DNA of 63,523 bases from a virus. Under the pieces are notes generated by a model. That model was not told the origin of the DNA. It saw only the letters and a program-made list of their open reading frames with translations, and did no database searches. The stretch is taken from the IMG/VR virus record IMGVR_UViG_3300021170_000002, positions 1-63,523 of that record, one strand, 5' to 3'. The position numbers and the translations under genes were made by a program. This document shows, one piece after another, positions 1 to 63,523 of the stretch (position 1 is its first letter; each line of letters opens with the position of its first letter).

Positions 1-127
1 CACGGCCGAAGATCCTGGTGCTGGCCGCATCCGTAGGAGGCTTCGACTTGGCGACTACGTGCAAACTCCATCAGGCGACACGGGCATCGTGACGGGGCGA
101 GGAGGCACTGAGTCGCGCGTCGATAAG
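1..127. repeat. Terminal direct repeat, left copy (genome join)
   Basis: Bases 1-127 are identical to the last 127 bases of the window. A 127-base overlap of this kind is what a de Bruijn assembler leaves at the ends of a circular contig, and the coding frame entering here continues the frame that leaves at the right end. The repeat is therefore most likely a join, not a biological terminal repeat. Confidence 0.9.
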
Positions 128-901
128 GACAACGGCACGCAAGACTGGCACCAGCGCAACAAACTGCGTGACCCCAAGACTGGTGCGTACTACGAGGACA
201 ACGCAGAGGAAGGCCACGTGGAGGAAACGCCTGAGCAGAGGCGCGCGGAGCCACGCAACCGCATTCCGCGAGCGCCCCGGCGTGGCGACGTGGTGCAGAC
301 CAGCGATGACGAGATTGGCGAGGTGACTGCCGAGCCTGGTGCCGTCTTCCGGCGCAGCCCCCCGGCAGTCAGGATCGATGGGACGGATCAGTTTCGAGTT
401 CGCAGGGGCAGTTCCCTCCGCGATCCCAAGACCGGCGCGTACTATCAGGATCACGCCGAAGGCGACGTCGAAGAAGTACCGCCGCCGCACGTCGGGGAGC
501 GGGTGCGTACCCACTTTCCAGACGACCCTGGCGGCTGGCACGGCTTGGCCGGCACCGTGAGAGACGTTGTCACTGGACAGGGGATCGACCCGAGAGTGGC
601 TGTCGGATTTGACAAAGAACACCGTGGCCGGCTGGGGGCGACGTTCTTGTATCAGCAACTCCGCCCCGCCAACAACTACGACCGCGACGTGCGCGGCCTC
701 GCCGGTGACCTCGCCTCCACCCACGACGACCACCACGCCGCGAAGGATCTGGCCGGCGTCCTTCACGACGCGCTCCTCGACGCCGGCCACGACCACGAAG
801 CCAACCTCGTTTCGTCCGCCGACCACGACACCCTCATGAGCATCGCTCGTAGAATGGCGTGGCAGCACCCCGAGCAAAGACCCAAAGAGGACAAGCCATG
901 A
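1..901 (+). CDS. Protease/module polyprotein, C-terminal end
   Basis: This is the 3' end of the gene that begins at 59360; codons start at base 2. It encodes three more SH3/KOW-like units (G-D-x-V ... G-x-V pattern, near bases 45, 283 and 495). Two copies of the phrase LRDPKTGAYY follow the first and second units. The final roughly 60 residues (YDRDVRGLAGDLASTHDDHH and onward) resemble an alpha-helical segment also present near base 62080. A start at the GTG at base 59 would be an artefact of cutting the circle. The stop overlaps the next ATG (ATGA at 898-901), so it is co-translated with the scaffold gene. Confidence 0.85.
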   Translation, partial: TAEDPGAGRIRRRLRLGDYVQTPSGDTGIVTGRGGTESRVDKDNGTQDWHQRNKLRDPKTGAYYEDNAEEGHVEETPEQRRAEPRNRIPRAPRRGDVVQTSDDEIGEVTAEPGAVFRRSPPAVRIDGTDQFRVRRGSSLRDPKTGAYYQDHAEGDVEEVPPPHVGERVRTHFPDDPGGWHGLAGTVRDVVTGQGIDPRVAVGFDKEHRGRLGATFLYQQLRPANNYDRDVRGLAGDLASTHDDHHAAKDLAGVLHDALLDAGHDHEANLVSSADHDTLMSIARRMAWQHPEQRPKEDKP

Positions 902-1863
902 TCAACCCCGAAGAAATGGTCGAGAAATGTGCCGAGGAAGGCATGGACCCGGAGATTGCGAAGGGCATGTCACCCGAGCAACTCCAGGCCGTCCTCGTCG
1001 CTCTCGAAAAGAAGAAAAAGGACAAGGAAGACGATGACAACGACCCCAACCGCCGGCGTGACGAACCCTCCCCGATGGAGGAGGACGACGAAGAGAAGTG
1101 GCCCAAGCCGGCCAACGAGGAAGAACAGCAGCACTTCCGCGAGCGTGCCCGCAAGTACGCCGAGCGCGCGAAAAAATTCAGTTCCCTCTATGATCCTGAC
1201 GAGCCGGATCGTAACATGGGACAGGAACAGCGCCATCGCACGGACGGAGATCAGCAGCACCTCGACGACTCTCAGATGAGTAGGAGTCCGGTCAAGATGA
1301 GCGAACAACGAGACAGTTCTCGCAAACAGGGTGCCCAGCAGGGCGGCTACCTCGCCACCATCATCCGCGAGGAAGTGACCAGAGCCGTCAAGGCCGCGAC
1401 CGGAGCGCAGGCCGCGCAGGTCAACGAGGTCCGCAAATTCAACGAGGACACCGCCGCCACGGCGAAGAAGAACAACGTCGATGCCGTCATCGACGAACTG
1501 TCCCGCGCCGGCAAGCTCCCTCCCGCCGAGCGTGAGGCCGAGCGGCGTGGTCTGCTCCTGGCGGATCACGTCACCGTCCACAAGTTCAGCGAAGGCGGCA
1601 AGGAAGTGGCACGCACCGCTTACGAGGACCGCGTGGCGCAACTCCGCCGCCGCCCCTCTCTCTTCGCCGAGAAGATCGCCGGCAGACCCCAGACGGCTCA
1701 GGATCGCGACAGTCAGATTTCCGTCCTCAAGGGCGAGTTCGAGGCGTTCAGCGAGGACTTCCAGCGGGTCGGCATGACGGAGGAGAAGCTCATCAAGGGC
1801 TTCGAGATCGAGCGCGAGCGCAACCCGAAACTGACCGCCAAGGAATACCTGAACCAGCGCTGA
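898..1863 (+). CDS. Head scaffold-like protein
   Basis: 321 residues. The N-terminal third is extremely charged (runs of K, D, E and R around residues 40-110). The C-terminal 170 residues are predicted helical and end in a segment (FEIERERNPKLTAKEYLNQR) that resembles the C-terminal scaffold part of Mu gpI-type protease/scaffold proteins. The ATG at 898 overlaps the stop of the protease polyprotein and has an AGAGG-type ribosome site upstream, so it is preferred over the upstream in-frame start at 859. Position between protease and decoration/capsid genes supports a scaffold role. The function is inferred from composition and order. Confidence 0.6.
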   Translation: MINPEEMVEKCAEEGMDPEIAKGMSPEQLQAVLVALEKKKKDKEDDDNDPNRRRDEPSPMEEDDEEKWPKPANEEEQQHFRERARKYAERAKKFSSLYDPDEPDRNMGQEQRHRTDGDQQHLDDSQMSRSPVKMSEQRDSSRKQGAQQGGYLATIIREEVTRAVKAATGAQAAQVNEVRKFNEDTAATAKKNNVDAVIDELSRAGKLPPAEREAERRGLLLADHVTVHKFSEGGKEVARTAYEDRVAQLRRRPSLFAEKIAGRPQTAQDRDSQISVLKGEFEAFSEDFQRVGMTEEKLIKGFEIERERNPKLTAKEYLNQR

Positions 1864-4519: not shown

Positions 4520-5503
4520 ATGTCGATCGAGTCGAAAATCTCGGTGTTGACCGCCTCGCTACGTTCAGAATTCCAGATCGCCTACAAGGCGACGGCCGAG
4601 CCTGCGCCGTGGGAGCAGTTCACGCAGATCATCCCCTCCACGGCTCGCATCGAGCATTACACGTGGATGAGTCCGTCGCCCGGCATCGCGCAGTACCAGG
4701 GTCATCGCCGGTACGGCAAGATCGACACCGTCCGCTACGACGTCGAGAACCTTGAATTCGACGCCGGCTTCGAGATCCTCATGCGCGACATTCGCGACGA
4801 CCAGACCGGCGGCTACATGCTCAAGCCGAAGGAGCTGGCCGAGCGTGCGAAGAAGTTCCCCGGTCGCTGGGTCATCAAGAACGGCGTTGCCAAGGGTGCC
4901 ACGCAGACCTGCTTCGACGGCAGCAACTTCTTCGCCACGTCGCACAACATCGGCACCGGCAACAACCTGCTGACCTTCACCGCGACCAACGGGCCGTTCG
5001 GCAGCGACGGACTCACCTACAAGATCGCCGCGCTGTTCACCGGCGGCGCGCTGAAGCCCATCCTGTACCAGCAGCGTATGGGACCGGACTTCGAGACGAC
5101 GGGAGGCACGCCGCAGGCCAAGGAAGCGAAGATCGTGAGGTACTGGATCGACATGGAAGGGCAATCGGCCTACGGCTGGTGGTGGTTTGCCGTGCAAGAA
5201 ACCATCACGAACACTCCTTCGGTCGTCGATCTGGCGTTGGTGATGCGGAACATCTACGCCGCGTTCAGGAGTTTTCAGCTCCCGAAAAGTTTGAATTCCG
5301 AGGATGGAGAATATCCACTAGAGCAAGAGGTGTTCAACTCGTCGAACCTCGTTCTCGTGGGACCACCCTCTCTGGAACCGGTCTTCGACCAACTGTTCAA
5401 CGAAACTTGGTCGCCGCAACAGGTTGGCAGCAATACGGTTGCGACGACTAACCAGTGGAAGGGCAAGGGAAAATACATCCCGAGCAATTTCATGGGGACG
5501 TGA
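4520..5503 (+). CDS. Major capsid protein, Mu gpT type
   Basis: 327 residues. The block YDVENLEFDAGFEILMRDIR near residues 74-93, the segment TCFDGSNFFATSHNIGTGNN near 130-149, and the C-terminal pattern around LVLVGPPSLEPVFDQLF match the Mu-like major head subunit gpT family in order and length. It forms the icosahedral shell, assembled on the scaffold and matured by the protease encoded upstream. Followed by a promoter and an HNH gene. Confidence 0.88.
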   Translation: MSIESKISVLTASLRSEFQIAYKATAEPAPWEQFTQIIPSTARIEHYTWMSPSPGIAQYQGHRRYGKIDTVRYDVENLEFDAGFEILMRDIRDDQTGGYMLKPKELAERAKKFPGRWVIKNGVAKGATQTCFDGSNFFATSHNIGTGNNLLTFTATNGPFGSDGLTYKIAALFTGGALKPILYQQRMGPDFETTGGTPQAKEAKIVRYWIDMEGQSAYGWWWFAVQETITNTPSVVDLALVMRNIYAAFRSFQLPKSLNSEDGEYPLEQEVFNSSNLVLVGPPSLEPVFDQLFNETWSPQQVGSNTVATTNQWKGKGKYIPSNFMGT

Positions 5504-5559: not shown

Positions 5560-5561
5560 GA

Positions 5562-5595: not shown

Positions 5596-5626
5596 CTTTC
5601 ATCACGCGCCTTTGGAGGAGGCACCG

Positions 5627-7372: not shown

Positions 7373-7659
7373 GCGCTGAACCGCAGGGCATTCCTTTGAG
7401 CATCGGCGAGGCTCGTCTCGTCGCGAAGCAGATTCGCGAAACGAGAATCCTCCTTGGCCCAGGTCGCGAATACTGGGCGTGGGTGGTCGAGCAGTTGTGC
7501 GACCGCCTCGAGTCGGAGCGTGAGGAGTGTGCCAAACTGGTCGAGGAGGAACTGCCTGACGCCTGCACGTGCGACGACTGTAGCACCAGCGCCAGAGGGC
7601 CGCACCCGCTATTCGACGTGGAGAAGATCGCCGCCGCCATTCGTGCGAGGAAGCCATGA
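7369..7659 (+). CDS. Unknown small protein
   Basis: 96 residues, start overlapping the regulator's stop (ATGA). Charged helices surround a small cysteine cluster (C-T-C-D-D-C near residues 65-70) that could bind a metal. No family recognised. Translationally coupled to its neighbours. Confidence 0.65.
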   Translation: MSAEPQGIPLSIGEARLVAKQIRETRILLGPGREYWAWVVEQLCDRLESEREECAKLVEEELPDACTCDDCSTSARGPHPLFDVEKIAAAIRARKP

Positions 7660-9572: not shown

Positions 9573-9794
9573 ATGCCGCACGACATGCACGGTGAAGAGT
9601 TGAAGCCCGGTGACGAGGTCATCCTGCGCTGCAAGGTGGCGAGTCTGAGTTTGGGCGAGGACGACTGCAACGTGGATCTGGAGACGGTCCATCCCTGCTA
9701 CCCGGCCTCGTTCAAGAACCACTTCTTCGTCAACAGCAAGCAGGTCGAGAAGGTCGGTGTCGAGAATGGCCCTGACGAGGGCAACTCCCCTTGA
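9573..9794 (+). CDS. Unknown small SH3-like protein
   Basis: 73 residues from the ATG at 9573. ELKPGDEVILRCKVASLSLG near residues 9-28 is a G-D-x-V beta-barrel entry motif like those in the structural polyprotein. The start is uncertain because the frame stays open further upstream. Its stop overlaps the TTG start of the next gene. Confidence 0.5.
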   Translation: MPHDMHGEELKPGDEVILRCKVASLSLGEDDCNVDLETVHPCYPASFKNHFFVNSKQVEKVGVENGPDEGNSP

Positions 9795-10498
9795 ATGACG
9801 GCGAGGCGATTCTGGAGGCCATCAAGGCAGATCCCGCCGAGGATCTGCACAGGCTCATCTACGCCGATTGGCTCGAGGAGAACGACCACCCCGAGCGCGC
9901 CAGTTTCATCCGCCATCAGATCGCGGCGGCGAGGACTGGACAGGTCGATTGTCAGGAGAAACGGTGGTTCTCTGGATCGACTCCACCAGGGTATCTCGTC
10001 CGCTGCGGCGAGTGTGCATTCTGCCGCCCGATGATTGCCGCACAGACCATTCACAAGACACGTGGCCTGGAACTAATCGGCGACCTTCCATTCTCCTGTG
10101 CGCACGTCGCCAAGCATCCGTCTCTCGAAAAGGAGGAGGCACCAAACTGGTTCGTGCTGTACCTCTGGCGCGGCTTCGTCACTCACGTCACCTGCCCGAT
10201 GCATCATTGGCTCGATCACGGCGCGAGGTTGTGCGAACTGCACCCGGTCGAGAAGGTGGTGCCGTGCGACAGATTCCCACGCGAAGACTCACGCGATTTG
10301 TTCGGCTGGTGGAACGAGTCCATAAGCCAACACGACGATGAGTACGACGAGATCCCCGAGGAAGTCTGGAGGCTTCTCGACGGCGACAAGGAATTTCACA
10401 AAGGCTGGGTCTTCTTCGACTCCAGGCAGAAAGCCATCGACGCGCTCTCAGCGGCCCTGATCGAGTACGCCCGGCGACCGCAGGAGGCCACCCCATGA
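9791..10498 (+). CDS. TIGR02996 repeat-companion domain protein
   Basis: 235 residues, TTG start overlapping the previous stop. The N-terminal 45 residues (EAILEAIKADPAED, RLIYADWLEENDHPERASFI) fit the TIGR02996 domain closely. The rest has paired cysteines (CGECAFC near residues 75-81), conserved-looking tryptophans and histidines, and no recognised fold. Proteins opening this way are abundant in Gemmata-type planctomycetes, so this is strong host evidence. Molecular role unknown. Confidence 0.75.
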   Translation: MNDGEAILEAIKADPAEDLHRLIYADWLEENDHPERASFIRHQIAAARTGQVDCQEKRWFSGSTPPGYLVRCGECAFCRPMIAAQTIHKTRGLELIGDLPFSCAHVAKHPSLEKEEAPNWFVLYLWRGFVTHVTCPMHHWLDHGARLCELHPVEKVVPCDRFPREDSRDLFGWWNESISQHDDEYDEIPEEVWRLLDGDKEFHKGWVFFDSRQKAIDALSAALIEYARRPQEATP

Positions 10499-11046: not shown

Positions 11047-12513
11047 ATGAGCGTCGGCTCCTACGTCGCGTATCCTCCCCTGACCACCTATCGCGGCCTC
11101 AACCACGCCACCGGAGTCGCCACCGCTCTTGGCGATCTGCTCTACGTCAGCGATCCCGTCAACGGCCTCGTCTCCCCCGCCAGTCAGCTCGTCGATCAGG
11201 GCAACGCCGCACAGACCCAGCGCCTGTTCGCCAGTCTCTTCGCGGGAGTCGCCAACAGCACGCAAGGCGTCTCAGATGCCACGGCACGGCCGGCGAGCGT
11301 CCTGACCGATCAGATTTTCGACGCCTTCCCCTGTGTCAACTCGACCTTTCAGGTGGGCGACTTCGTCGCGCCGTCCTACAGCGCCGGCATCCTCAACACG
11401 CAATTGCTGGTGCGCGTGACGGATGCGAGTCTCGCCATCGGCGAGGTGTTGAGTGCCGCTGCGGTCGCCACGACCACGGTGCGCGTGCAGTTCACGAGTC
11501 GCACGCTCGACGGCCTCACCAGTAGCGCGCTGATGAACGCGACCGTCACCGCTCCCCCTGCCGCCGCTCTGACGGCCACCGGCGGGACGATGACCTACAC
11601 CGGTGGCGATGGCTGCTACAGCAGCACCAGCACGGCCAGCGCCGGCGGCCCCGTGGTCATCCGGGGCGGCTTTGGCGGTGCGACCACGACGGGCACGGCC
11701 GGGGCTTCGGGCACGACCACCATCGGCGGCGCGGCAGGCGTCAACGCCACCACGGGCACTCCGGGCGCGGGGGCGGCCACCATCGTCCAGGGCGGCGCGG
11801 GCGGTACGGCCACGGGCGCGAACGCGGGCGGCGCGGGTGGAGCGGTGACGATCACGGGCGGCTTCGGCGGCAACAAGACCACCACGGCGGCGGCCGCCGG
11901 CGGCGCGGGTGGCGTCATCACGATCACCGGAGGCGACGGCGGCGACACGGCCTCATCCGGATCGGACGCAGGTGGTGCTGGTGCGACCGTCACCATCCAG
12001 GGCGGCGAGGGCGGAGACGCCAGTGCTGGCACGGGCAACGGCGGCGCTGGCGGGAACATAAACCTCGTGCCGGGCCTGGGCGGCACGACCACGGGCGGAG
12101 CCGCCGGCGTTCCGGGTGAAGTGCAGATCAACAGCGCCGCTGGGTTGTTCCAGGCGGTCTACGCTCAGGGACCGGGGACGGTGCCGACGACCAGCACGTC
12201 CTACGTCTTCTTCATGGCCGACCGCGCCTATAGAATCAAGAACGTCTCCTGCATCGCCGCCACGGCCGGCGGTGCAGCCTCGACGGTGACGGTGACGAAG
12301 GACACCGGCACCAACGCCCCTGGCGGCGGAACGGCCGTGATCACCGCTCCGATGGCGCTGTCGGGTACGGCCAACACGAGGGTCGTGGGAACGCTGACCG
12401 GCACGCTGGCGACTCTGGCGCTGGCGGCGGGGGACAGACTCTCGACGACGTGGGCGGGGACGATCTCGCCTCTGGCTGGTGCCGTGGTGGTCTGCAATTT
12501 GGTCCCGATCTGA
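11047..12513 (+). CDS. Second decoration/fibre protein with glycine-rich repeats
   Basis: 488 residues with the same three-part plan as the gene at 1947. Residues 1-180 form a decoration-type domain, residues about 185-355 are glycine-rich repeats (GGAGGAVTITGGFGGN type), and the last 110 residues form the same beta-rich tail domain (SYVFFMADRAYRIKNVS ... LAAGDRLSTTWAG). The C-terminal domains of the two proteins align throughout, whereas the N-terminal domains differ. Two such proteins could occupy different sites on the virion or form hetero-oligomeric fibres. Confidence 0.65.
   Translation: MSVGSYVAYPPLTTYRGLNHATGVATALGDLLYVSDPVNGLVSPASQLVDQGNAAQTQRLFASLFAGVANSTQGVSDATARPASVLTDQIFDAFPCVNSTFQVGDFVAPSYSAGILNTQLLVRVTDASLAIGEVLSAAAVATTTVRVQFTSRTLDGLTSSALMNATVTAPPAAALTATGGTMTYTGGDGCYSSTSTASAGGPVVIRGGFGGATTTGTAGASGTTTIGGAAGVNATTGTPGAGAATIVQGGAGGTATGANAGGAGGAVTITGGFGGNKTTTAAAAGGAGGVITITGGDGGDTASSGSDAGGAGATVTIQGGEGGDASAGTGNGGAGGNINLVPGLGGTTTGGAAGVPGEVQINSAAGLFQAVYAQGPGTVPTTSTSYVFFMADRAYRIKNVSCIAATAGGAASTVTVTKDTGTNAPGGGTAVITAPMALSGTANTRVVGTLTGTLATLALAAGDRLSTTWAGTISPLAGAVVVCNLVPI
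11580..12120 (+). repeat. Glycine-rich coding repeats, second gene
   Basis: About ten imperfect units encoding VTITGGxGGxxxxGG. Same character as 2598-3366; the units are not identical at the DNA level. Confidence 0.8.
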
Positions 12514-50749: not shown

Positions 50750-51310
50750 ATGGCGAAGAAACGCAAAACAAGTACGACTCCTAAAAAAAGGTCCGCTCCG
50801 GACTGGACCGAGAGGTTCCTCGCTGCTCTGCGCCAGAGTGCCAACATCAGCTACAGTGCGATGATGTCGGGGACCAACCGAACGGCGGTCTACCACCGGC
50901 GCGACAACGACAAGGCGTTCGCCGATGCGATGAAGGATGCCTTGGAGGACTCCGTCGAGAAGTTGGAACTCGAAGCTCGACGGCGCGCTCACGACGGTCT
51001 GAACCGCCTCAAGTTCCACCAGGGCCAGCCGATCATGGTCCCTGTTTTCGGCCCTGATCGTCAGCCGCTTCTGACCGAGAATGGCGAGCCGGTTCTCGTG
51101 CCCTACGTCGAACACGAGTATAGCGACACGCTGATGATCTTCCTTCTCAAAGCCCACCGCCCCGAGAAGTACCGCGACAACTACAAGGTCGAACTCAGCG
51201 GTGTAGGTGGCGGTCCTGTCGAGATCCTCGAAGTCTGCCGCACCGCCTCGGGCGCGAGATCCCTGATCGAGGAGATCGATGATGACGACGAAGAAACCGA
51301 AGAGGCGTAA
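50750..51310 (+). CDS. terS: Terminase small subunit
   Basis: 186 residues. A basic N-terminus, then helix-turn-helix WTERFLAALRQSANISYSAM ... AVYHRRDNDKAFADAMKDAL, a variable middle with two beta hairpins (VPVFGPDRQPLLTENGEPVL), and YSDTLMIFLLKAHRPEKYRD, the segment typical of phage small terminase-like proteins. Acidic C-terminus. It recognises packaging sites and recruits TerL; overlaps terL by 32 bases. Confidence 0.8.
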   Translation: MAKKRKTSTTPKKRSAPDWTERFLAALRQSANISYSAMMSGTNRTAVYHRRDNDKAFADAMKDALEDSVEKLELEARRRAHDGLNRLKFHQGQPIMVPVFGPDRQPLLTENGEPVLVPYVEHEYSDTLMIFLLKAHRPEKYRDNYKVELSGVGGGPVEILEVCRTASGARSLIEEIDDDDEETEEA

Positions 51311-54029
51311 GGCAAAACTGAACCTGCACCCCGGTCAGCAGAAGGCGTGGGACAGCACCAAGCGCATCGTCGCCATCATCTCGGGAGTCCGCGCGGGCAA
51401 GGCACTCGCCCTCGACACCCCCATCCCGACGCCAGGTGGCTTCGTACCGATGGGCGATCTTGTTGTTGGTGACGAGGTATTCGACCGTCGGGGGAGAACC
51501 TGTCGCGTCACCTATGCGTTTCCCGTCATGACCGGGCGGAAGTGTTACCGCATCACCTTCGATGATGGCACCTCCGTCGTGGCTGATGCCGAACATCGGT
51601 GGGTGACGCAGACCTACCGCCAGAGGAAGAATCAAGCACGCCGCCAGCCAGTCTCTTCGTGGTCTGATGATCGCCCTCAGTGCAGGCCAGCGGCTGATGA
51701 ATCAGTCGTCACCACCGAAGAGATTCGCTCTTCGTTGCTGGCGCGAGAGGGCAGGCAGACCAACCACTCGATCGACGTCTGCGATCCCGTTCATACTCCC
51801 GGCCGGTCGCTACCGATCCCGCCTTACACCCTCGGCCTTTGGCTCGGGGATGGCCACTCTTCTTGTGCCGTGCTGACGACTGCTGATCCAGAGATCCTCA
51901 CTCACGTCCTTGCGGAAGGGATTACCGTGGGTGCCCCCAAGGATGGCAACGCCGGCAAGGCCAGAACGCATACGCTGGGGGCCGTCAGAACGAACGTCCG
52001 CTGGGACGCGGCTAGAATCGAGTCGGCCCTCTCTCTCTACCACTCTGGTAAGAACGTGGCCGAAGTTGCCGATCTGGTGGGTCGCGGCGATAGGGGGCGC
52101 GTCAGGCGGATTCTGAAAGAAGCCGGTGTCGCGGTAGAGAAGAGGCCGCAAAGAATTTCGCACCGAAAACGCTCGGCCAACGGCGCTTTCTTGCCGGGTG
52201 GTTTGGTGCGGCCGACTCCTCCCGATAGGAATGCCAGTTTGCAAGCTATCCTTCGCCGTGAAGGACTCTTGAACAACAAACACGTCCCTGAAGCCTACCT
52301 CTGGGCCTCCGCCGAAGATCGCCTTTCGTTGCTGCAAGGCTTGATGGACAGCGATGGGTTCTGCGCGGAGAAGGGGGCGTGCGAGTTCTCCAACACCAAT
52401 GAAGGCATCAGCCATGCCGTCCTGCATCTTCTATCGAGTTTGGGTATCAAGGCGAGTATCGCCAAGAAGATACCCACGCTATACGGGAAGCCTCAACGGC
52501 CGTGTTATCGCGTCACCTTCACGACCGATCTGCCCGTCTTCAGGCTGAAACGGAAACTCGAACGCCTCGGCACTTCTCCCAAGTCTTGCGTTCGCCGGCG
52601 ATTCGTCGTTGCCGTCGATGAAGTTCCTTCGGTCCCTGTCCGCTGCATCGCGGTCGATTCTCCCGACCATACCTATCTCTGTACGCGGTCGTTCGTGCCG
52701 ACGCACAACACGAGTTTCGGGCCTCCCTGGCTCGAGCGAGAGATGAAAAGGTGCGGCCCCGGCGACTATCTTGCCGTCGCGCCGACCTTTCCGCTTCTCG
52801 ACAACGGCATCCGCCCTGAGATCGAAAATCTCTTCGGCCGGCTCCGACAACTCGGCAGCGGGACGCAGCGCCAGTTTTCCATCTCCGAAGACGGCTATCG
52901 TCGCCTCTGGCCGGATCATAGCGAACCGCGCCCTTGCCGCATCATCTATGGCCACGCTCAGAACCCCGACAGCCTTGCCGCCCTTCGCGCGAAAGCAGCA
53001 TGGTGTGACGAAGCAGGGCAAGCCGCGTTCAAGCTGGAGAGCTACGAGGAAGTGCAGCGCCGCGTCTCCTTCGACGTGGGCCGCATCCTCCTCACCACCA
53101 CGGTCTACAACCTCGGTTGGCTGAAGCAGCAAATCTGGGATAAGTGGGAGCAGTCCGGTTGCAACCACCCCGAGATCGACGTGATCAACTTCCGCTCTAT
53201 CGACAACCCCGCCTTCCCCCCGGAGGAGTACCACCGCGCCTTCCGCGAGTTGCCGATGTGGAAGGCCATCATGTTCTTCGATGGCAAGCCGACGCGCCCC
53301 GCCGGCGTCATCTACGACCTGTTCGATCCCAAGCGCCACTGCGTCCCTCGGCACCTGCTACCCGGCGACTGGCCCCGCTTCGCTGGCCTGGACTTCGGCG
53401 CGGTCAACACCGCCGCTGTCTACTCCGCCCAGGAACGCGACCGCGCCAGTGGTGTGCCAACCGGCCGCTTCATCGTCTACCGTGAGTACCCCGATCGGAA
53501 GTTCCTCCCCGGCAAGCGAGAGGCTTCGGCACACACCGTTCGCATGCTGGAGGGGGAGTCCTCCACGCCGCTGTTCATCGGCGGCTCGCATAGCGAGGAC
53601 GACTGGCGCGACAAGTTCCGCGCCGCTGGTCTGCCCGTAGCCGAGCCGCCCGTCAATGCCGTCGAGGTGCAGATCGACGCCGTCTATGGACTCATCGCCG
53701 CCGGCAACCTGATCGTCATGGACGACTGCATCGGCCTGCTCGACCAACTCGCCACCTACTCGCGCGTTCTCGACGCACGAGGCGAACCGACCGAGGAGAT
53801 AGAAAACGACGCGGCTTTCCACATGTGTGCAGCGCTCAGATATTTGTGCGTCTGGCTGGTCAAGGGTGGCCTGGCCGGCTTCCGTGCCACGCGCAGCACG
53901 GAGCGGTCGTATCAGGACTTCCCTCCCGGCACGTTCGCGGAGGAAGAGGTGATCGACGTGGAGCGCAAGCGCCGCCGGCCTGAACGCGACCGCACTGGTG
54001 GCGAGTTCGGCTTGCCGATAGAATGGTGA
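51279..54029 (+). CDS. terL: Terminase large subunit with in-frame intein
   Basis: 916 residues as encoded; removal of the 436-residue intein leaves a 480-residue TerL. After splicing the Walker A reads SGVRAGKTSFGP. YLAVAPTFPLLDNGI and the Walker B / DEAG segment (AWCDEAGQAAFKLES near residue 575) follow, then LLTTTVYNLGWLK as coupling motif. LDFGAVNTAAVYSA near 704 and a later acidic pair form the RNase H-like nuclease. ATG at 51279 or 51282, both after GGAG. It packages phage DNA into the prohead; function requires splicing. Confidence 0.9.
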   Translation: MMTTKKPKRRKAKLNLHPGQQKAWDSTKRIVAIISGVRAGKALALDTPIPTPGGFVPMGDLVVGDEVFDRRGRTCRVTYAFPVMTGRKCYRITFDDGTSVVADAEHRWVTQTYRQRKNQARRQPVSSWSDDRPQCRPAADESVVTTEEIRSSLLAREGRQTNHSIDVCDPVHTPGRSLPIPPYTLGLWLGDGHSSCAVLTTADPEILTHVLAEGITVGAPKDGNAGKARTHTLGAVRTNVRWDAARIESALSLYHSGKNVAEVADLVGRGDRGRVRRILKEAGVAVEKRPQRISHRKRSANGAFLPGGLVRPTPPDRNASLQAILRREGLLNNKHVPEAYLWASAEDRLSLLQGLMDSDGFCAEKGACEFSNTNEGISHAVLHLLSSLGIKASIAKKIPTLYGKPQRPCYRVTFTTDLPVFRLKRKLERLGTSPKSCVRRRFVVAVDEVPSVPVRCIAVDSPDHTYLCTRSFVPTHNTSFGPPWLEREMKRCGPGDYLAVAPTFPLLDNGIRPEIENLFGRLRQLGSGTQRQFSISEDGYRRLWPDHSEPRPCRIIYGHAQNPDSLAALRAKAAWCDEAGQAAFKLESYEEVQRRVSFDVGRILLTTTVYNLGWLKQQIWDKWEQSGCNHPEIDVINFRSIDNPAFPPEEYHRAFRELPMWKAIMFFDGKPTRPAGVIYDLFDPKRHCVPRHLLPGDWPRFAGLDFGAVNTAAVYSAQERDRASGVPTGRFIVYREYPDRKFLPGKREASAHTVRMLEGESSTPLFIGGSHSEDDWRDKFRAAGLPVAEPPVNAVEVQIDAVYGLIAAGNLIVMDDCIGLLDQLATYSRVLDARGEPTEEIENDAAFHMCAALRYLCVWLVKGGLAGFRATRSTERSYQDFPPGTFAEEEVIDVERKRRRPERDRTGGEFGLPIEW
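51402..52709 (+). mobile_element. Class 3 intein with LAGLIDADG endonuclease inside terL
   Basis: 436 residues inserted between Lys and Thr of the Walker A. The first residue is Ala (ALALDTPIPTPGG), not Cys or Ser. Class 3 triad present: Trp in block B (DAEHRWVT, intein residue 67), Cys in block F (VRCIAVDSPD, residue 415), Thr in block G (VPTHN, residue 434); the next residue is Thr. The endonuclease has two DOD motifs (LGLWLGDGHSS, LLQGLMDSDGF) and a helix-turn-helix between them. It appears able to splice and home. Confidence 0.88.
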
Positions 54030-54608: not shown

Positions 54609-55043
54609 ATGTCTCAGCATCCTACGGAAAACCCCGAAGAGCGTGAAGATCAGCGTTTCGGCGGCGTCTTTACCACGCCCCTTGATGGTAGTTTCAGCGT
54701 GGGTGATCTGGTTGGCCTGAATGAGCAAGGGCAGGCCACGGTCATGCCTCTCACCGTGACGAATTCAGAAACTGTTCCACCTATCATCAACACCGGCTCG
54801 TCGCAACCTCTGCCTATCACCTTCAGCCCTGAAATGTGGAAGGCGGTCGAGGAGGTCGTCGATCGCCGGCTGTCGGTTCTGATCGACCTGTTCCACGTCG
54901 ATCAGGAAGAACTGCCCCTCATCCGCGCCGTCTTGCAGGGCGATGTGACGGCGCGTCTTGCGCTAGCGGATCTGTGTGAGGAAAGAGGCCAACAACAGCG
55001 AGCCGACCGCATCCGGCATCCTCTGGTGGAGGTGAAGTCGTGA
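54609..55043 (+). CDS. Unknown protein with C-terminal repeat-companion motif
   Basis: 144 residues. Acidic N-terminus, a beta segment (DLVGLNEQGQATVMPLTVTN), a helix (EMWKAVEEVVDRRLSVLIDL), and PLIRAVLQGDVTARLALADL-CEERGQQQRADRIR, which matches the TIGR02996 helix pair in degenerate form (ALADLCEERG for YADWLEERG). Confidence 0.6.
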   Translation: MSQHPTENPEEREDQRFGGVFTTPLDGSFSVGDLVGLNEQGQATVMPLTVTNSETVPPIINTGSSQPLPITFSPEMWKAVEEVVDRRLSVLIDLFHVDQEELPLIRAVLQGDVTARLALADLCEERGQQQRADRIRHPLVEVKS

Positions 55044-56143: not shown

Positions 56144-59100
56144 ATGACGCCTGCGGCCAACGACCCCTGGGCCTTCCGGGTGGACACGACGCAACCCCTC
56201 GTCGTGCAACCCTACGACAACTCGTCGAACCCCCACCGCACCTCCACCTCCGACGATCTGCCCCAGCGCGACGATCCCCGCGAGCGGCGCGAGAAGGTTC
56301 GCTCTGGCCCCTTCGGCGTCCAGCTCCCCTGGTTCCTACCCTATTTCGATGACCAGCAGACCATCTCCGAAAACGCCGCGATGCGCCTGGCGTATCGCAA
56401 GATGCTCAATGATCCGAACGTGAAGGCAGCACTGTACGGCAAGATCGGAGCCGTCCAGGGACTCGACCTGAAGATCATCCCCTCCAACCGCAAGGACAAG
56501 CACGCGCAGGAGCTGGCCGAGTTGGTGCAGTGGAACCTCACGCAGGCCGTCAAGGACGGCTGGCCGGGCATCGTCTGGACGATCCTCGTCCACGGCCTCA
56601 TCGACGGCTACTCGATCAGCGAGAAGGTCTGGAGCAGGCGTGAGGGCGGCAAGTTCAGCGGCGCGTACTTCATGCGCGCCCTGAAGCCCAAGGATACCGG
56701 CCACGACGTCGTTCCCGTGACCGACGAGTTCCGCAACGTCACGGCTATCCGCACGCTGCGCTACAACCCCGGCCTCGACTTCCATCCAAGCAACTTCATC
56801 ATCTATCGCCACCTGCCGCTGTTCGACACCGCGACGGGGCAGAGCGACTTCCGTGGTGCATACAGCACGTACTGGATGCTGGACGTCGCCCGTAAACTCC
56901 GCGCCATGGGTATCGAGAAGCGGGCGATGCCGGTCATCATCGGGCACTACCAGAATGCCCAGGACCGCCCCGCCGTCGAGGATGCTCTCAGCCTCATCAA
57001 GACGCAGAACTGGATCGCTCTGCCCGAGCAGGTCCGCACGGAAGTCCTGAACCTCGCCGGGGCTGGCGACAGCATCCTCACCAGCGCCATGCGCGACCTC
57101 GCGGAGGACATATTCCTGGCGATCGCCGGTGCGACGTTGCAGGCCCGCCAGGGCGACGTGAACAACGCCCGTGGTTCCAGCGCCGAGCATCGCAACACGG
57201 CGGATCTGTTCATCCGGTATCTTGCTCAGCGCCTCGAAAGCCTGCTCAACGACGAGGAAGAAGGCTTCATCAAGGAACTGTGCGATCTCAACGCTCCCGG
57301 CGTGCAGGAGTATCCGAAAGCTGCCTTGCAGGCCGTGGACGAGAAGGATCACCAGGCGCGCATCAAGACGTACTACACCGGCTGGGAGATGGGCATGAAC
57401 TTCAGCCGGCAGGCGATGAACGACGAGTTCGGCTTCCAGCCTCCCGACGTGGACGATCCCGACGACACGCTGGGCAGCAAGGCCGATCAGGAAGCGCAGG
57501 TGGCCGCCGCCACGCTAGCCGCGCCCAAGGGCCACGTGGGCGACGTGGGCGGACCTGCCGATCCCGAGCAGGAGGTGCCGCCTGGACCGCCGGATCAGCC
57601 GCCTCCTTCGGGGCCGGGGGGAGCGCAGGAGATGGCGGAAGACTACGTCCCACAGGAAGGCGACCGTGTTACCATTCATCACCCTGGCGGCACCTACCAC
57701 GGTCGATCCGGTACGGTCGCAGGAAGCGCTTCACAGGGTACGCTTGCGTCATGGCATTACGTTGACGTGGACCGCGATCCGAAAATGAGCGGCCATCAGA
57801 ACACGCTTGGGATGCGCGTCCCGGTTAGAACTGACCGCCTTCGCCGCATGGCCGAAGACGACCAGACCGGCAAGGCACCATCGGCGTCGTCGCAGAGGCA
57901 GCCTGAACCGGAACAGACGGCTTCGCCTGCGCCGATACAGCGACCGACTCAATCACCGAAGTACGCGATGCGGACGCCGAGTTACGACCCGCACGGCGAT
58001 CCGAAAACTTCCGCATGGGCGGCTCAACCACCGACGCGAGCCGATTACGAACAGGACGTGGAGGAGATTACCCGGTCGCTTGCCGAGCGATATCGGGAAT
58101 CGGCCTATGATCATATGCTTCATCAGGGTGAAGTTCCTGATCTGGATGAGGATGACCATGACGGGTTGGAAGAAGTGTCGAACAGTGTTGATGCGTTGGC
58201 GAGGGAGTGGGCAGAGGGTGACGTGCGTGATCGACATTACGACGAACACGTCTTCGGTCATCTGCCTGTTCACTACCTGAACCGCGATCCCGACTTCACG
58301 CATCTCTATCAGTCGCTGAAGGAAGATCCGACCGACACAGACTCTCAGGCGGCGATGAACGACTGGCTCGAGGAACATGGCCTCGACCGCTTCAAGTTCT
58401 ACTTCGACGACGACGAGGATCATCCCCGCGCCCGGCCCTTCGGTGAATTCCTCCACCCCAAAGAAGACCTGCGCCAGGCTCCCATCCACACCGGCAGCGG
58501 CGTCGATCGTCGGGGCCAGCGCTACGAGACGGCGCTAGGTAAGCGTACCAGCGTGCCGCCGTGGGCGAAGCCTGCCCCGTCAGAATCTCGCTTTCCTCCG
58601 GTGCGCTCGGACACACCGTTCGAGTTGATGCTCGAGGAAGACGAGTTCGCGGAGGGCAATCCGCCCGAAACTGTCTCCACCCTGCAACCTCGCCCCCAGA
58701 CTCCGCCTCTGCGCGGCAGTCTGCCCCTCATCCACCCCGAGTTGCTGGCCCTCACACGCGCCGCCTCCTCCCATAGCCAAAAGAACCTCCGCGACCGCCA
58801 CGTCGCCCAGCACGCCCTTGCCGACTGGTACGAGGATCACGGCCAAGGGCACCTGCTCGAGGACCGGCACAACCATCCATCTCAGGCCACTCCCCGGCAT
58901 CTAATGGCCGCCAATCACGCGCACACCCAATCGGCGTGGGAGCGCGAGCGATTGATGCACGAAGTGCTGGGCCTGCATCCCGACACGCTTCACGATCACC
59001 TGGCCGACGCCTTCGAGAATGGCCGTCCTCTGCACGCCACCCTCGACCCGGAGCAACCCGAAGAGCATCGTCTCGGCGAGTACCTCCAGACGCATTACCC

Positions 59101-59320
59101 CGACCTGGGCGTCGAGTGGCGTGAAGGCGGGCACCCGCGCAACTGGAGGTTCGGGCGCTACCCGGAGGGTGACGACTACTTCCAGAACTACTACCCGACG
59201 TTCCCGCCGAGTCTCAGGCGCGGCACGGGAACGAAGGGCGATCCTGTCGAGGAGTTCGGCGAGGAAGCCACCGTGAGCATCCTCACAGCGCGGCCGAAGC
59301 GGTTCACTTACGAGGGCTGA
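56144..59320 (+). CDS. Portal protein (Mu gp29/DUF935 type) with long C-terminal extension
   Basis: 1058 residues. Residues 35-440 follow the DUF935 portal core (MRLAYRKMLNDPNVKAALYG, IVWTILVHGLIDGYSISEKV, LARLESLL-type helix near 365, YYTGWEMGMNF). The extra 600 residues are unusual: EMAEDYVPQEGDRVTIHHPG starts an SH3/KOW-like module near residue 497; DPTDTDSQAAMNDWLEEHGL near 725 and HVAQHALADWYEDHGQG near 886 are TIGR02996-like. These modules recur in the neighbouring polyprotein. The core forms the dodecameric DNA gate; the extension may line the capsid interior. Confidence 0.82.
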   Translation: MTPAANDPWAFRVDTTQPLVVQPYDNSSNPHRTSTSDDLPQRDDPRERREKVRSGPFGVQLPWFLPYFDDQQTISENAAMRLAYRKMLNDPNVKAALYGKIGAVQGLDLKIIPSNRKDKHAQELAELVQWNLTQAVKDGWPGIVWTILVHGLIDGYSISEKVWSRREGGKFSGAYFMRALKPKDTGHDVVPVTDEFRNVTAIRTLRYNPGLDFHPSNFIIYRHLPLFDTATGQSDFRGAYSTYWMLDVARKLRAMGIEKRAMPVIIGHYQNAQDRPAVEDALSLIKTQNWIALPEQVRTEVLNLAGAGDSILTSAMRDLAEDIFLAIAGATLQARQGDVNNARGSSAEHRNTADLFIRYLAQRLESLLNDEEEGFIKELCDLNAPGVQEYPKAALQAVDEKDHQARIKTYYTGWEMGMNFSRQAMNDEFGFQPPDVDDPDDTLGSKADQEAQVAAATLAAPKGHVGDVGGPADPEQEVPPGPPDQPPPSGPGGAQEMAEDYVPQEGDRVTIHHPGGTYHGRSGTVAGSASQGTLASWHYVDVDRDPKMSGHQNTLGMRVPVRTDRLRRMAEDDQTGKAPSASSQRQPEPEQTASPAPIQRPTQSPKYAMRTPSYDPHGDPKTSAWAAQPPTRADYEQDVEEITRSLAERYRESAYDHMLHQGEVPDLDEDDHDGLEEVSNSVDALAREWAEGDVRDRHYDEHVFGHLPVHYLNRDPDFTHLYQSLKEDPTDTDSQAAMNDWLEEHGLDRFKFYFDDDEDHPRARPFGEFLHPKEDLRQAPIHTGSGVDRRGQRYETALGKRTSVPPWAKPAPSESRFPPVRSDTPFELMLEEDEFAEGNPPETVSTLQPRPQTPPLRGSLPLIHPELLALTRAASSHSQKNLRDRHVAQHALADWYEDHGQGHLLEDRHNHPSQATPRHLMAANHAHTQSAWERERLMHEVLGLHPDTLHDHLADAFENGRPLHATLDPEQPEEHRLGEYLQTHYPDLGVEWREGGHPRNWRFGRYPEGDDYFQNYYPTFPPSLRRGTGTKGDPVEEFGEEATVSILTARPKRFTYEG

Positions 59321-59359: not shown

Positions 59360-62300
59360 ATGAGCGAGTCATCCGACTATCAGCTTTCCAACGTCGAAAT
59401 ATTCGCGACCGGTGTGGAGCGTCAGAAGAACTACACCGATGCCGACCTCCGCGACGTCGTGCGCAACTTCGATCTCTTCTCCTCTCCTGATGCGCCGAAG
59501 GTCTACCTTCACGTCCCCGTCGTCATCGGGCACGACGAGGAGCAGGAAGGCCACCTCGAAGAGTACCTCAAGCGCACCGACCTGCCAGCGGCTGGATGGG
59601 TCTGCGCCCTGCGGACGAAGCCAGGAAAACTTCTGGCGGATTTCGACTACGTCGCGCCCGAGATGGCCGAGTTGTTCCGCACGAAAAAATTTCGGATGTT
59701 CTCAGCTGAGGTGTACGACGCGGTCCCTGCCGGTTTGCCCGGTGGCTACGGCAAGATGCTGCGCCGGGTCGCTGCTCTGGGCGCGGAGATCCCGCAGGTC
59801 AAGGGTCTCGCCGAAGCTCCCATGCCCGAGCGCATGAGCGAGGGTGCCGTGCGTCTGGTGGTGCCGGTGCGGTACGTCGGGCGGATGCGGTTGCCGGGGG
59901 GCGTGTGGGCGGCGTTCAGCGAGGTGGCGTGCATGGCGGAGCGGAGGGTGCCACAAGCCGGCGAGAGGGTGAACGTTGGGGTCAACGCGCGTCCTGGGAG
60001 GATCGTTGGCCCGCCTGAAGTACAAGAGGAAGAGCATGGAAGTTCTCTCATCAGTGGTTTGGGAGGACGTCCAGACGCGGTTCGTGGTTCACGCAACGAC
60101 CGTATCAAGGACGATAGCGGCCAGCGCTACGGGGATTACGCGGAGCAACCGCTGCGCGTCGGTTATCAGGCTGTCGTCCACAATCCTGAGTCAGTACACC
60201 ACGGACGGCAGGGTGAAGTGGTTGGTCTTTCACAAGGGCACATTCAACTCGACATGCCGGCCACCAATGATCGTGGTCCGATGACGACGTGGATAGGCAG
60301 GAGGTTCGTCCGCCGCGTCAAGGCTGCACCGATGGCCGAAGGCGATGGCGGCCCCGGCGAGGGTGCGTCGAGCAACGAGGCGAGGCACCGACAGCGGAAC
60401 AGGGCAAGGTGGCAGGAGGATGGGCCATATCCCATTCACGAAGAAGGTAACAGACAGCGAACCGATGCCGAAGATGATTCGATGCTGCAACAGCAGGGGC
60501 GTGTTCGTAATCCGCCTTTACCCGGCCAGTGGCGACAAGGTCCGGGCGAGGACGAGCAGTACGCGGAGCAACCCTACGTCCCCCAGGTCGGTCACCGCGT
60601 CACGCTGCACGCGCCAGGGATGCCCTATCATGGCCGTGGCGGCACGGTGCGGCAGGCGGGACAGGAGAACTCCTTCGTCCACTTCCACGGCGATTCGTCC
60701 AGCGGGGCGCGCGAACACGAAGCGGTCATCCCCAACGAGAGCCTTCGCCGCGCTGCCGTGCCCAACGCCGAAGACGAGCCACCGAAGAAGCAACCTCCCA
60801 AGGACAAGGCCGATCGCCGTCTCCGCAGCCCTCGACCTGACACCCGAGCCACGAGCATCAACGAGCAGTCACAAACGACGGACGCCGAGCAGGACTTCGA
60901 GTCCATGCAAGGGATTCATCCCGGCCACTGGCGCGGTCACGTCGAAGGCAAAAAACCACAGCGCAAGCAACCGCCAGCGACCCCCGAAGAGCGACGGCAG
61001 CGAAGTCCCAGGCTACGACCGGCCCCAGGTGAGAACAGGACGCGCACCGATGCCGAGAACGATGGTGTCCTTGATCTGCTCCGGCCTGTTGCTGATCATC
61101 CCGGCCACTGGCGCGACGGTCCTCCCTACGAGGGTTACGCTGAAGTTCCCCTCTCCGAAGAAGCGCGCGGCCTGTTGCAAGAGATCCTCGACAACCCCGA
61201 AGCCGCTGGTGAACTGACGCCCTTGCTCGTGGAGTTGTTCCAGCACGAAGGCCAGCACGAAGCAGCCGAGGCGCTGGAAGACGCCCCCCCTGAGACGGTG
61301 GTTGCGATCGCGAAGCGATTGCTGGGTGAGCAGATGGCCGAGTGCCCCGGTCCCGATGGCAAGAAGCGCCCCAAGCGGCGGCCACGCAAGCACGGTGAGG
61401 ATGAGATGGCCGAGCGTCATCCTGACGTGGGCCAGACGGTTAGCGACGAAGAGGGCGATGCAGTCATAGAGCGCCGAGGCCATCTCGGCGGTGAGCCAGC
61501 CTCCCTCGTCCGAAGGCCACAGACTGGCATGGGCGACGTGTTGCAGGATCGGCAGGTGCGCGACGAGAAAGGTAAACGCTTCGGCCAGTACGCCGAGGAT
61601 GACCCCGATCCGCGCGACGACCGCCGCAAGCGCCATCCCAGCCCCAGCGGGCCGTTCTGGGCGCGGGAGTTCGACGAGGCTTGCGTACCGAAGGAAAGCG
61701 TAATGGCCGAGGATAGACGCCCCAGAGCAGGTGATCGCGTTACCATCGATCTGCCCGGTCATCAGCACCACGGCCGAAGCGGCACGATCTTTGCTTCTGG
61801 GCCATTCGAAGAGACTCACGGGCATGCCTTCATCTCTCTGGATGCAGACCCAAAAAGAGATCCCACTGGCGTGAGGCGTGGTGGCAGGGCAATCGTGCCG
61901 GAAGACAGGCTGATCTATCATGGTCCCCCCAACTCCGAGATGGCTGAAGGCAAGACTCCCTCCTCGAGCGACGAGTTCGAGTCGCGCCTGTCCGCCGCCT
62001 CGGCCGCTCCCGAACAGCACCCCGAGGCCATCCCCTATCAGACGAAGCCTCTGCATCCCGAGATCGAAGGACTCCTGGGCGACGTGATCGACAACCAGCA
62101 CGACCACGAGGCGGTCGGCGATCTTCGTCGCGTCCTGCACGACGCCATGCTCGACCACGGCCGCACGGATCTGGCGCAGCACCTGCGAAGCACGGGCCGG
62201 CGCGGCACGGTGGCGATGGCGCATCATCTGCTGGGCGTCGGGGAGATGGGCGAGGACGATGAGCCACCGAAGAAGCAGCCACCGGCCACCCCTGAAGAGA

Positions 62301-63523
62301 GGAGACGCCGAAGCCAACAGCCGTCTCCAACGTGGGAAGAAGCGCCTCGCCCTTTGACGGATGCGGAGCAGGATTGGGGTGACGTGACCGACCCGGCGGC
62401 ACATCCCGGCCACTGGCGTCACCATGCCGAAGACGAACCTGAAGGCGAGCCGACTCCGCCCCAGAGACTCCAGCGCGGCGCTCGCGTCGTGACCCAGCAG
62501 GGCGACAAGGGCCGCATCACGCGCACGCGCCCCGGCCACGTACAGATGCGTCCCGAGGGCAGCGTGCGGGGCAGGCAGCGCATCGACCAGCCTGAGACGC
62601 TGGTGGACGAGAAGAACCGCCAGGGCTTCGAGTTCGCCGAAGAGGAACCCACCAACAACGTCCGCCGTCCTGCCCCCGGCGCTGGTCTTGGTGGCTACCT
62701 GATTCCACAGCGCCTACCGAGCGAGATGGCGGGAGGACACAGAAGTTCGCTCCCCGAACGTGAGGTTCCCGGCGGCGGCGTCCTCGACCTGCACGATGCG
62801 CCGCCGCTTCCGCCGGCCAAACCACGACCATCGTATGCCGCAAGCGCCCAGATTCCGTGGAACCACCTGATCGATGAGCGGACGCCACGAGGCCAGCAGC
62901 AGATCGCGGCGTTCCAGCATGGTTTGGATGAGTTGCACGGCGACGACGAGACGCAGGCCATACTCGACGAGATGGAGTGGGGCCATCGGCCGCACCGGCA
63001 GATCAACGTCGCTCCGGGGCAGGAGATGGCGGAGGTGCCGCTGAAGGTCGGCGATAGGGCGGTCTATCACCGTCCAGGGCACGGCTGGCATGGGCGCGGC
63101 GGAACCATCGAGCGCATCGTTCCCCGAGAGGATGGTGACTATGCCCACTTCCGGTTCGAGCAAGACCCCGAACAAGGTCCGGCCGGTGAAGCCGGTGAAG
63201 AACCGCCTCGTCTGTTTCGCACCGACAGTCTTCGCCGCGCTCCCGTTTCTAAGCACACCGAGCGCCCCTTCGCCAACGTCTCTGCCGACAAGGCTCGTCG
63301 CATGCTCCACGACGGCACGGCACAGGGGCACGCGCTGACGGAGAAGCAGAGAGGGGCGCTGGGGGCGAGAGCGAGTGGGTACGCCGAAGGCGATCCCACG
63401 GCCGAAGATCCTGGTGCTGGCCGCATCCGTAGGAGGCTTCGACTTGGCGACTACGTGCAAACTCCATCAGGCGACACGGGCATCGTGACGGGGCGAGGAG
63501 GCACTGAGTCGCGCGTCGATAAG
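59360..63523 (+). CDS. Mu gpI-like protease fused to a modular polyprotein (N-terminal part)
   Basis: Reads without a stop from the ATG at 59360 to the window end and continues to 901 across the join: 1645 residues in all. Residues 1-155 (YTDADLRDVVRNFDLFS, VVIGHDEEQEGHLEEYLKRT, GWVCALRTKPGKLLADFDYV, FRMFSAEVYDAVPAGLPGGY) fit the Mu gpI maturation protease. The rest is a chain of SH3/KOW-like units (near 59957, 60155, 60586, 61726, 62471, 63040, 63442) separated by disordered linkers with MAE/YAE and HPGHWR motifs. Confidence 0.82.
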   Translation, partial: MSESSDYQLSNVEIFATGVERQKNYTDADLRDVVRNFDLFSSPDAPKVYLHVPVVIGHDEEQEGHLEEYLKRTDLPAAGWVCALRTKPGKLLADFDYVAPEMAELFRTKKFRMFSAEVYDAVPAGLPGGYGKMLRRVAALGAEIPQVKGLAEAPMPERMSEGAVRLVVPVRYVGRMRLPGGVWAAFSEVACMAERRVPQAGERVNVGVNARPGRIVGPPEVQEEEHGSSLISGLGGRPDAVRGSRNDRIKDDSGQRYGDYAEQPLRVGYQAVVHNPESVHHGRQGEVVGLSQGHIQLDMPATNDRGPMTTWIGRRFVRRVKAAPMAEGDGGPGEGASSNEARHRQRNRARWQEDGPYPIHEEGNRQRTDAEDDSMLQQQGRVRNPPLPGQWRQGPGEDEQYAEQPYVPQVGHRVTLHAPGMPYHGRGGTVRQAGQENSFVHFHGDSSSGAREHEAVIPNESLRRAAVPNAEDEPPKKQPPKDKADRRLRSPRPDTRATSINEQSQTTDAEQDFESMQGIHPGHWRGHVEGKKPQRKQPPATPEERRQRSPRLRPAPGENRTRTDAENDGVLDLLRPVADHPGHWRDGPPYEGYAEVPLSEEARGLLQEILDNPEAAGELTPLLVELFQHEGQHEAAEALEDAPPETVVAIAKRLLGEQMAECPGPDGKKRPKRRPRKHGEDEMAERHPDVGQTVSDEEGDAVIERRGHLGGEPASLVRRPQTGMGDVLQDRQVRDEKGKRFGQYAEDDPDPRDDRRKRHPSPSGPFWAREFDEACVPKESVMAEDRRPRAGDRVTIDLPGHQHHGRSGTIFASGPFEETHGHAFISLDADPKRDPTGVRRGGRAIVPEDRLIYHGPPNSEMAEGKTPSSSDEFESRLSAASAAPEQHPEAIPYQTKPLHPEIEGLLGDVIDNQHDHEAVGDLRRVLHDAMLDHGRTDLAQHLRSTGRRGTVAMAHHLLGVGEMGEDDEPPKKQPPATPEERRRRSQQPSPTWEEAPRPLTDAEQDWGDVTDPAAHPGHWRHHAEDEPEGEPTPPQRLQRGARVVTQQGDKGRITRTRPGHVQMRPEGSVRGRQRIDQPETLVDEKNRQGFEFAEEEPTNNVRRPAPGAGLGGYLIPQRLPSEMAGGHRSSLPEREVPGGGVLDLHDAPPLPPAKPRPSYAASAQIPWNHLIDERTPRGQQQIAAFQHGLDELHGDDETQAILDEMEWGHRPHRQINVAPGQEMAEVPLKVGDRAVYHRPGHGWHGRGGTIERIVPREDGDYAHFRFEQDPEQGPAGEAGEEPPRLFRTDSLRRAPVSKHTERPFANVSADKARRMLHDGTAQGHALTEKQRGALGARASGYAEGDPTAEDPGAGRIRRRLRLGDYVQTPSGDTGIVTGRGGTESRVDK
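63397..63523. repeat. Terminal direct repeat, right copy (genome join)
   Basis: Second copy of the 127-base overlap at bases 1-127. Removing one copy gives a circle of 63,396 bp. The protease/module reading frame runs through it without a stop. Confidence 0.9.

Follow-up and report, generated by a model that had tools for sequence, protein, structure and literature searches.

A Mu-type head protease joined to a long chain of small modules in a viral genome: a probable self-processed head-assembly polyprotein

Results

One reading frame across the terminal join encodes a head protease followed by small modules

The stretch of DNA analysed here, termed the window throughout, comprises the 63,523 nucleotides of the IMG/VR virus record IMGVR_UViG_3300021170_000002, which stems from an uncultured phage, and our subject is a gene that runs off its end and continues at its beginning, between the genes for a Mu-type portal and a Mu gpT-like major head protein. 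The last 127 bases of the window are an exact copy of positions 1-127, and joining 59360-63396 to 1-901 yields 4938 nt, that is, 1645 codons with a single terminal stop. An earlier interpretation made from the letters alone (hereafter the sequence-only reading) had followed the same open frame from 59360 through the overlap to 901, and had placed a Mu gpI-like protease at the N-terminus of the product. In line with this assignment, amino acids (aa) 8-154 match the phrog_976 profile, which represents the Mu gpI-type head maturation protease, with E=3e-24. As argued below, the 1645-aa product is probably a head-assembly polyprotein that is processed by its own head protease.

With a guanine plus cytosine (GC) content of 63.5%, the window contains long spurious open reading frames (ORFs) on both strands, the terminal overlap has the length of an assembler k-mer, and scoring by codon usage failed to tell the frames of the 1645-aa ORF apart. 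These observations would suit an artefact, in which a chimeric join or a chance GC-rich open frame mimics a single protein. However, pairwise comparison of the pieces of the chain revealed homology across the join, as module Q, which spans it, matches module R (E=7e-13), and modules K and D both match module S (E=3e-9 and E=3e-5, respectively). Since modules on either side are thus homologous at the protein level within the 1645-aa frame, the join is real. Moreover, codon position 2 is the GC minimum in all 200-codon blocks, the pattern of one continuous coding frame, which together with the protease profile match and a foldable module (see below) strongly disfavours an artefact; we regard it as very improbable.

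The protease domain is 34-44% identical to the proteases of related phages, and H58, S115 and the tripeptide F186-S187-E188 are invariant in an alignment of the window with these relatives (A2), which makes His58 and Ser115 candidate catalytic residues of the predicted protease. The domain is encoded between the Portal_Mu gene (56144-59320) and the Mu-like_gpT gene (4520-5503), as is characteristic of the family. In contrast, the in-frame protease-scaffold fusion typical of phrog_976 is absent, and the scaffold domain is found on a separate ORF in another frame. Judged by its sequence, the window protease is a member of the phrog_976 family placed in a different gene architecture. A GAGG overlaps the codons of the FSE region upstream of the ATG at 59933 (M192), and a GAGG-like sequence overlaps the FSE codons before the following methionine in most relatives as well. 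This arrangement looks like the internal ribosome-binding site and start of the Mu gene Z inside gene I.

The chain is located at the protease-scaffold junction

The relatives are few in number. In six of them (L001, L002, L004, L005, L007 and L009) protease and scaffold region follow each other in one ORF. The product of the window scaffold ORF, which begins with MINPEEM, aligns to the scaffold region of all six, its C-terminal part corresponding to the C-terminus of their protease-scaffold ORFs; BLAST detects the match in L001, L004, L007 and L009. In L005, L007 and L009 the scaffold region begins at or shortly after the FSE and its methionine, with little or no insertion, and in L001 and L004 a short spacer bearing F-[AS]-D sites lies at this junction. 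In the window, about 1450 aa are located at exactly this point before the scaffold restarts at the ATG at 898. A further relative (L008/G007) has the layout of the others; its open frame of 1136 aa was set aside as an upstream open frame in front of an ordinary protease-scaffold. Likewise, a programmed -1 frameshift into the scaffold was rejected, as inspection by eye revealed no in-frame slippery heptamer at the overlap. By sequence, re-initiation at the ATGA, which is preceded by an AGAGGA sequence, appears to suit the scaffold start better.

When the module chain was compared with phages by tblastn, the protease region alone was matched among the matches listed. IMG/VR scans with an alignment of module J and the portal module and with the C-terminal 299 aa yielded no homologue, and a profile search for the modules in seven relative records, which ran without a positive control, found none. 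The alignment of six modules offered no segment of sufficient conservation for such a scan. The sole match among genome contigs was a remote Paracoccus locus. The relatives themselves contain long ORFs (L005 2-4981, L007 4021-6969, L009 1062-4844) in which FAE sites are followed by EDW or EW...GGKF-type segments. Among their long portal-side ORFs one carries the large polyvalent protein-associated domain 1 (LPD1; L005, E=9.7e-16) and one a KTSC domain.

The chain consists of four classes of modules

The chain was split at [FYMH]AE-type positions, and pairwise comparison of the pieces resulted in four classes (Table 1). Class 1 comprises B, D, J, P and S together with one copy in the portal tail; its HGRxGT[VI] unit is plainly seen in D, J and P and less strictly kept in B and S, and the portal tail has one more copy. 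Modules A, H, M, Q and R form class 2 with the common pattern GD-x-V...D(E/P)K-G-x-Y...AE. The sequence-only reading had counted about ten units of one pattern; the count was roughly right, whereas the single pattern merged five class-1 with five class-2 modules. Modules F and K and the end of S are helical by appearance. The peptide class, represented by C, by two copies in E and by L, is recognised by TDAE.D and PPKKQPP...HPGHWR features, the latter peptide occurring four times in the chain.

The same reading had taken all units for SH3/KOW-like, and here the classes part company. For module J, AlphaFold2 returned a five-stranded barrel (predicted local distance difference test (pLDDT) 77.9, predicted template modelling score 0.65) with low confidence at the C-terminal residues 74-79 (SEMAE), where the site lies. 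With a probability of 1.0 (E 2e-3 to 3e-2), Foldseek paired this model with NusG, PsaE, CAP-Gly and ribosomal proteins of the KOW type, and a profile search for class 1 listed PsaE first, though weakly (E=0.011). The models thus support an SH3/KOW-like fold for class 1. The class-2 model, in contrast, was weak (pLDDT 68.7, four short strands) and gave no fold match in Foldseek, and an SH3 fold was not shown for this class.

Profile scans recognised no Pfam or NCBIfam domain in the module chain, and hence no polyvalent effector domain. An assignment of the helical modules F, K and S to TIGR02996 was not supported, given no NCBIfam match and an hhalign probability of 0.8% to the TIGR02996 segments of the window; the helical alignment gave weak matches in the Protein Data Bank (estrogen-related receptor, SecA), which we attribute to chance. 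The whole chain is acidic (isoelectric point 5.9, charge about -43), and the predicted pieces are mostly smaller than 13 kDa. Among the three roles that had been suggested for the modules, DNA-binding proteins are least supported in view of this charge.

Table 1. Positions of the predicted features in the window
Feature	Position	Strand	Remark
Portal core, Mu-type (aa 1-470), no [FYMW][AS]E site	56144..57553	+	Portal_Mu E=2.7e-37
Portal C-terminal extension, four sites (E at aa 499, 571, 691, 837)	57554..59320	+	
Class-1 SH3/KOW-like module in portal extension, MAE sites on both flanks	57641..57856	+	39-42% identical to module J
Mu-type head maturation protease domain, ends at FSE site	59360..59923	+	polyprotein aa 1-188; phrog_976 match
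FSE (aa 186-188) then V-A-C-M-A-E, candidate autocleavage sites	59915..59941	+	FSE-then-M kept in relatives
Module A, class 2, ends DYAE (aa 262)	59924..60145	+	
Module B, class 1 SH3/KOW-like, ends PMAE (aa 327)	60146..60340	+	
Module C, peptide class (TDAE.D...PGxWR), ends QYAE (aa 403)	60341..60568	+	
Module D, class 1, weaker site NAE (aa 471)	60569..60772	+	
Module E, two PPKKQPP...HPGHWR peptides, weaker site HVE (aa 530), ends GYAE (aa 595)	60773..61144	+	
Module F, helical class, ends QMAE (aa 661)	61145..61342	+	
Linker G, basic, ends EMAE (aa 685)	61343..61414	+	
Module H, class 2, ends QYAE (aa 746)	61415..61597	+	
Linker I, ends VMAE (aa 784)	61598..61711	+	
Module J, class 1, ends EMAE (aa 863)	61712..61948	+	AlphaFold2, Foldseek
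Module K, helical, weaker site EMGE (aa 965)	61949..62254	+	
Module L, peptide class, weaker site HAE (aa 1024)	62255..62431	+	
Module M, class 2, ends FAE (aa 1094)	62432..62641	+	
Linkers N and O, end EMAE (aa 1225)	62642..63034	+	
Module P, class 1, ends GYAE (aa 1343)	63035..63388	+	
Module Q, first part; includes 127-base terminal overlap	63389..63523	+	
Module Q, remainder (class 2), weaker site NAE (aa 1415)	1..208	+	
Module R, class 2, weaker site HAE (aa 1499)	209..460	+	
Module S, class 1 plus helical, with stop codon of the 1645-aa ORF	461..901	+	
Separate scaffold gene, ATG 898, ATGA overlap with polyprotein stop, five [FYMW][AS]E sites	898..1863	+	
Major head protein, Mu gpT-like	4520..5503	+	PF10124 E=9.5e-32
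TIGR02996 domain	9791-10498		above curated cut-off
Weaker TIGR02996 matches	7656-8282; 54609-55043; 58301-58381		last in portal tail

A short site ending in glutamate recurs in the head-assembly proteins

In an unbiased scan of 6,859 tripeptide class patterns, [FYMW]-A-E ranked first among the window proteins (17 seen, 1.1 expected), and [FY]-S-E ranked first when the same scan was applied to the protease-scaffold ORFs of the six relatives (25 against 0.88). When single ORFs were tested for [FYMW][AS]E, the 1645-aa ORF was the strongest of the window (17 against 1.28). Counted after aa 155, the chain contains 15 such sites where 1.05 are expected, the maximum in 5000 shuffles being 7. The portal is divided in this respect, with none in its core (0.40 expected) and four in its tail (0.68 expected), and the scaffold ORF contains five (0.48 expected); scaffold sites recur at aligned positions in window and relatives. 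Across window and relatives, the test singled out mainly head-assembly proteins, including the protease-scaffold ORF in each of L001, L002, L005 and L009 and, in L002, also an ORF that is Mu_F-like.

More distant phages display the same tendency. F-[AS]-E or an acidic variant of it heads the list in three Mu-like phages, B3, KP12 and phiSHP3, and in Mu gpI (L014 3057-4142) the top pattern is L-[ST]-A or L-S-A, with five LSA after the protease domain, which makes LSA a candidate site of the Mu protease; given about 22,000 patterns the p-values of the individual phages are modest, and the weight comes from the repetition across phages. Portal tails with the motif were found in B3 (aa 400), KP12 (aa 410), phiSHP3 (aa 424) and five relatives. 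The Mu portal gp29 contains a sole LSA, at position 431 of 512. The predicted Mu site can be directly compared with the end of gp29 in virions, as its last 124 residues are missing from the virion structure, a loss that the authors ascribed to protease I (PMC11915804). The portal of L001 (3149-5590) likewise has a long C-terminal extension, MuF-like by eye, with YAE and FAE at its joints; Pfam recognises Portal_Mu alone.

The possibility that the MAE tripeptides are true starts of fused genes was rejected, as YAE, FAE and WAE fill equivalent places and the relatives use F and Y; M192 is the sole exception, because the GAGG is kept upstream of it. Cleavage of the head protein at this site is not claimed, as the gpT-type proteins are devoid of the F/Y form near the N-terminus and L007 has K in place of E.

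Other features of the window and the putative host

The TIGR02996 domains listed in Table 1 suggest a Gemmata-like planctomycete host, an assignment based on the family name and known distribution of this domain. Upstream of the portal, the gene for the terminase large subunit (51279-54029) has its two terminase parts separated by a LAGLIDADG/homing-endonuclease region that is probably an intein. By eye, we further noted two glycine-rich repetitive ORFs with similar C-termini (1947-3746 and 11047-12513; GDRLS...W.GT) and an ORF with repeated CxCxCG cysteine motifs (5531-6661).

Discussion

The sequence-only reading had described a protease followed by a chain of modules. The [FYMW]-A-E sites, the module and the sites in the portal tail, and the displaced scaffold, all of which it lacked, turn this chain into a likely self-processed polyprotein. 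We propose that the N-terminal Mu-type protease is joined, where relatives have the scaffold domain, to about twenty small modules, which would comprise SH3/KOW-like domains, small helical domains and disordered-looking peptides, and that [F/Y/M/W]-[A/S]-E between them is probably the recognition site of the protease itself. The chain would probably assemble within the procapsid together with the separate scaffold (ORF 898-1863) and the portal, where the protease would cut after E. By these cuts it would release itself and the modules, shorten the portal tail and break the scaffold into fragments. The internal start at M192, comparable to that of Mu Z inside I, may provide additional, protease-free copies of the chain. 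Our best guess for the final and least certain step is that the folded modules remain in the head as internal proteins, while the linkers are lost.

Several points weigh against this model. Cleavage is deduced and none was observed, and the chain is devoid of a scaffold domain that could target it to the procapsid. The remaining ORFs exceed the expected number of sites about 1.5 to 2 times in most records, no ORF of L004 or L007 stood out in the per-ORF test, and for the window portal the excess of sites is modest when taken over the whole protein (p=0.026). Moreover, several boundaries match the site weakly (NAE, HVE, HAE, EMGE), and its first position (P3) is often M in the window and mostly F or Y in the relatives. 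The Poisson and shuffle tests treat residues as independent, whereas duplicated modules inherit their sites together. Finally, no homologue that would show conservation of the chain was found in the seven relatives or the two IMG/VR scans.

The inheritance of sites with copied modules would also suit a chain that stays uncut and serves as a multivalent tether, in which the repeated SH3/KOW-like domains link portal, scaffold and capsid and [FYMW]AE is merely inherited linker sequence; one of the repeated modules is present in the portal tail, and copied linkers could have brought the tripeptide along. However, the same site also ends unrelated classes of modules, with differing synonymous codons, and it tops the scans of independent protease-scaffold proteins that do not contain these modules. 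We therefore consider an uncut tether unlikely.

If the chain is cut, the pieces could have either of two fates. They may be a disposable core, a giant cleavable scaffold comparable to T4 gp22, gp67 and gp68, whose pieces of 3-16 kDa exit before packaging without being injected. The insertion at the scaffold position next to the scaffold gene, the net acidic chain with its small pieces and the failure to recognise a catalytic domain are consistent with such a role, and in T4 the core proteins are cut into fragments, most of which leave (PMC9026906). On the other hand, the separate gene at 898-1863 already supplies a scaffold that has the conserved domain, mere filler would not need folded, divergent domains, and the long portal-side ORFs of the relatives bear LPD1 and KTSC and not scaffold alone. 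A disposable core is thus plausible, albeit at somewhat less than an even chance. Alternatively, the folded modules may stay with the DNA and enter the host, like the T4 internal proteins or predicted polyvalent proteins, a fate to which we assign close to an even chance. It would agree with lineage-specific cargo, as the modules were not found in the seven relatives, which have other domains with FAE sites instead, among them LPD1. Small size (8-20 kDa) and poor conservation also mark the T4 internal proteins, which are directed to the core, are shortened by gp21 and enter the host by ejection (PMC9026906). Conversely, the chain contains no recognisable enzyme or inhibitor domain, it is acidic whereas T4-type internal proteins are described as basic, and the module search in the relatives had no positive control. 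The most far-reaching version of the polyprotein model, in which a head protease placed first in a polyprotein of the RNA-virus style releases about twenty packaged and injected internal head proteins at sites common to portal tail and scaffold, is accordingly offered as a tentative proposal with a chance well below even.

The comparisons below draw on how genes are generally ordered in Mu-like phages and on the polyprotein layout of RNA viruses. Mu I/Z and its relatives (B3 ORF36/36Z, phiSHP3 orf32/33; phrog_976) share with the window the protease family, the gene order portal, protease, scaffold and gpT-type head protein, a probable internal start after the protease, and short sites in the tails of protease and portal. 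In Mu and relatives, however, the scaffold follows the protease directly (361-603 aa in the ORFs read), whereas in the window about 1450 aa intervene and the scaffold is a separate gene; in addition, Mu has LSA as recurring tripeptide instead of F-[AS]-E. The T4 core (gp21, gp22/gp67/gp68, IPI-III) resembles the proposed system in its short motif ending in E, its many procapsid substrates and its small internal proteins of similar size. There, each protein has its own gene and internal proteins carry an N-terminal targeting peptide, whereas here they would be joined to the protease in one chain. The T4 head protease cuts after L/I-X-E and that of phiKZ after S/A-X-E (PMC9026906), and the SPN3US head protease cuts after AXE (PMC10052503). 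The likeness to phiKZ and SPN3US (gp175, gp245) lies in these short motifs ending in E and, if the modules are packaged, in the large amount of packaged protein. The differences are their separate genes and their protease, a relative of T4 gp21 from MEROPS family S80. Phage polyvalent proteins are multi-domain polypeptides encoded beside portal or MuF genes and predicted to be packaged, and their authors liken them to viral polyproteins (PMC5512222). The window chain differs from them in being fused to a head maturation protease and in repeating one small fold with sites between the copies.

In tailed phages, scaffold, protease and internal head proteins are usually separate or, at most, form a short protease-scaffold fusion. 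A protease followed by a long chain of small domains with likely cutting sites in most of the joints is an arrangement familiar mainly from RNA viruses. The data provide a testable rule for the head proteases of the Mu-like phages examined here, namely that they would cut after F-[A/S]-E, or near L-S-A in the case of Mu; it predicts sites in both the portal tail and the scaffold. Detection of the modules in virions would mean that a single gene can provide a tailed phage with many small head proteins.

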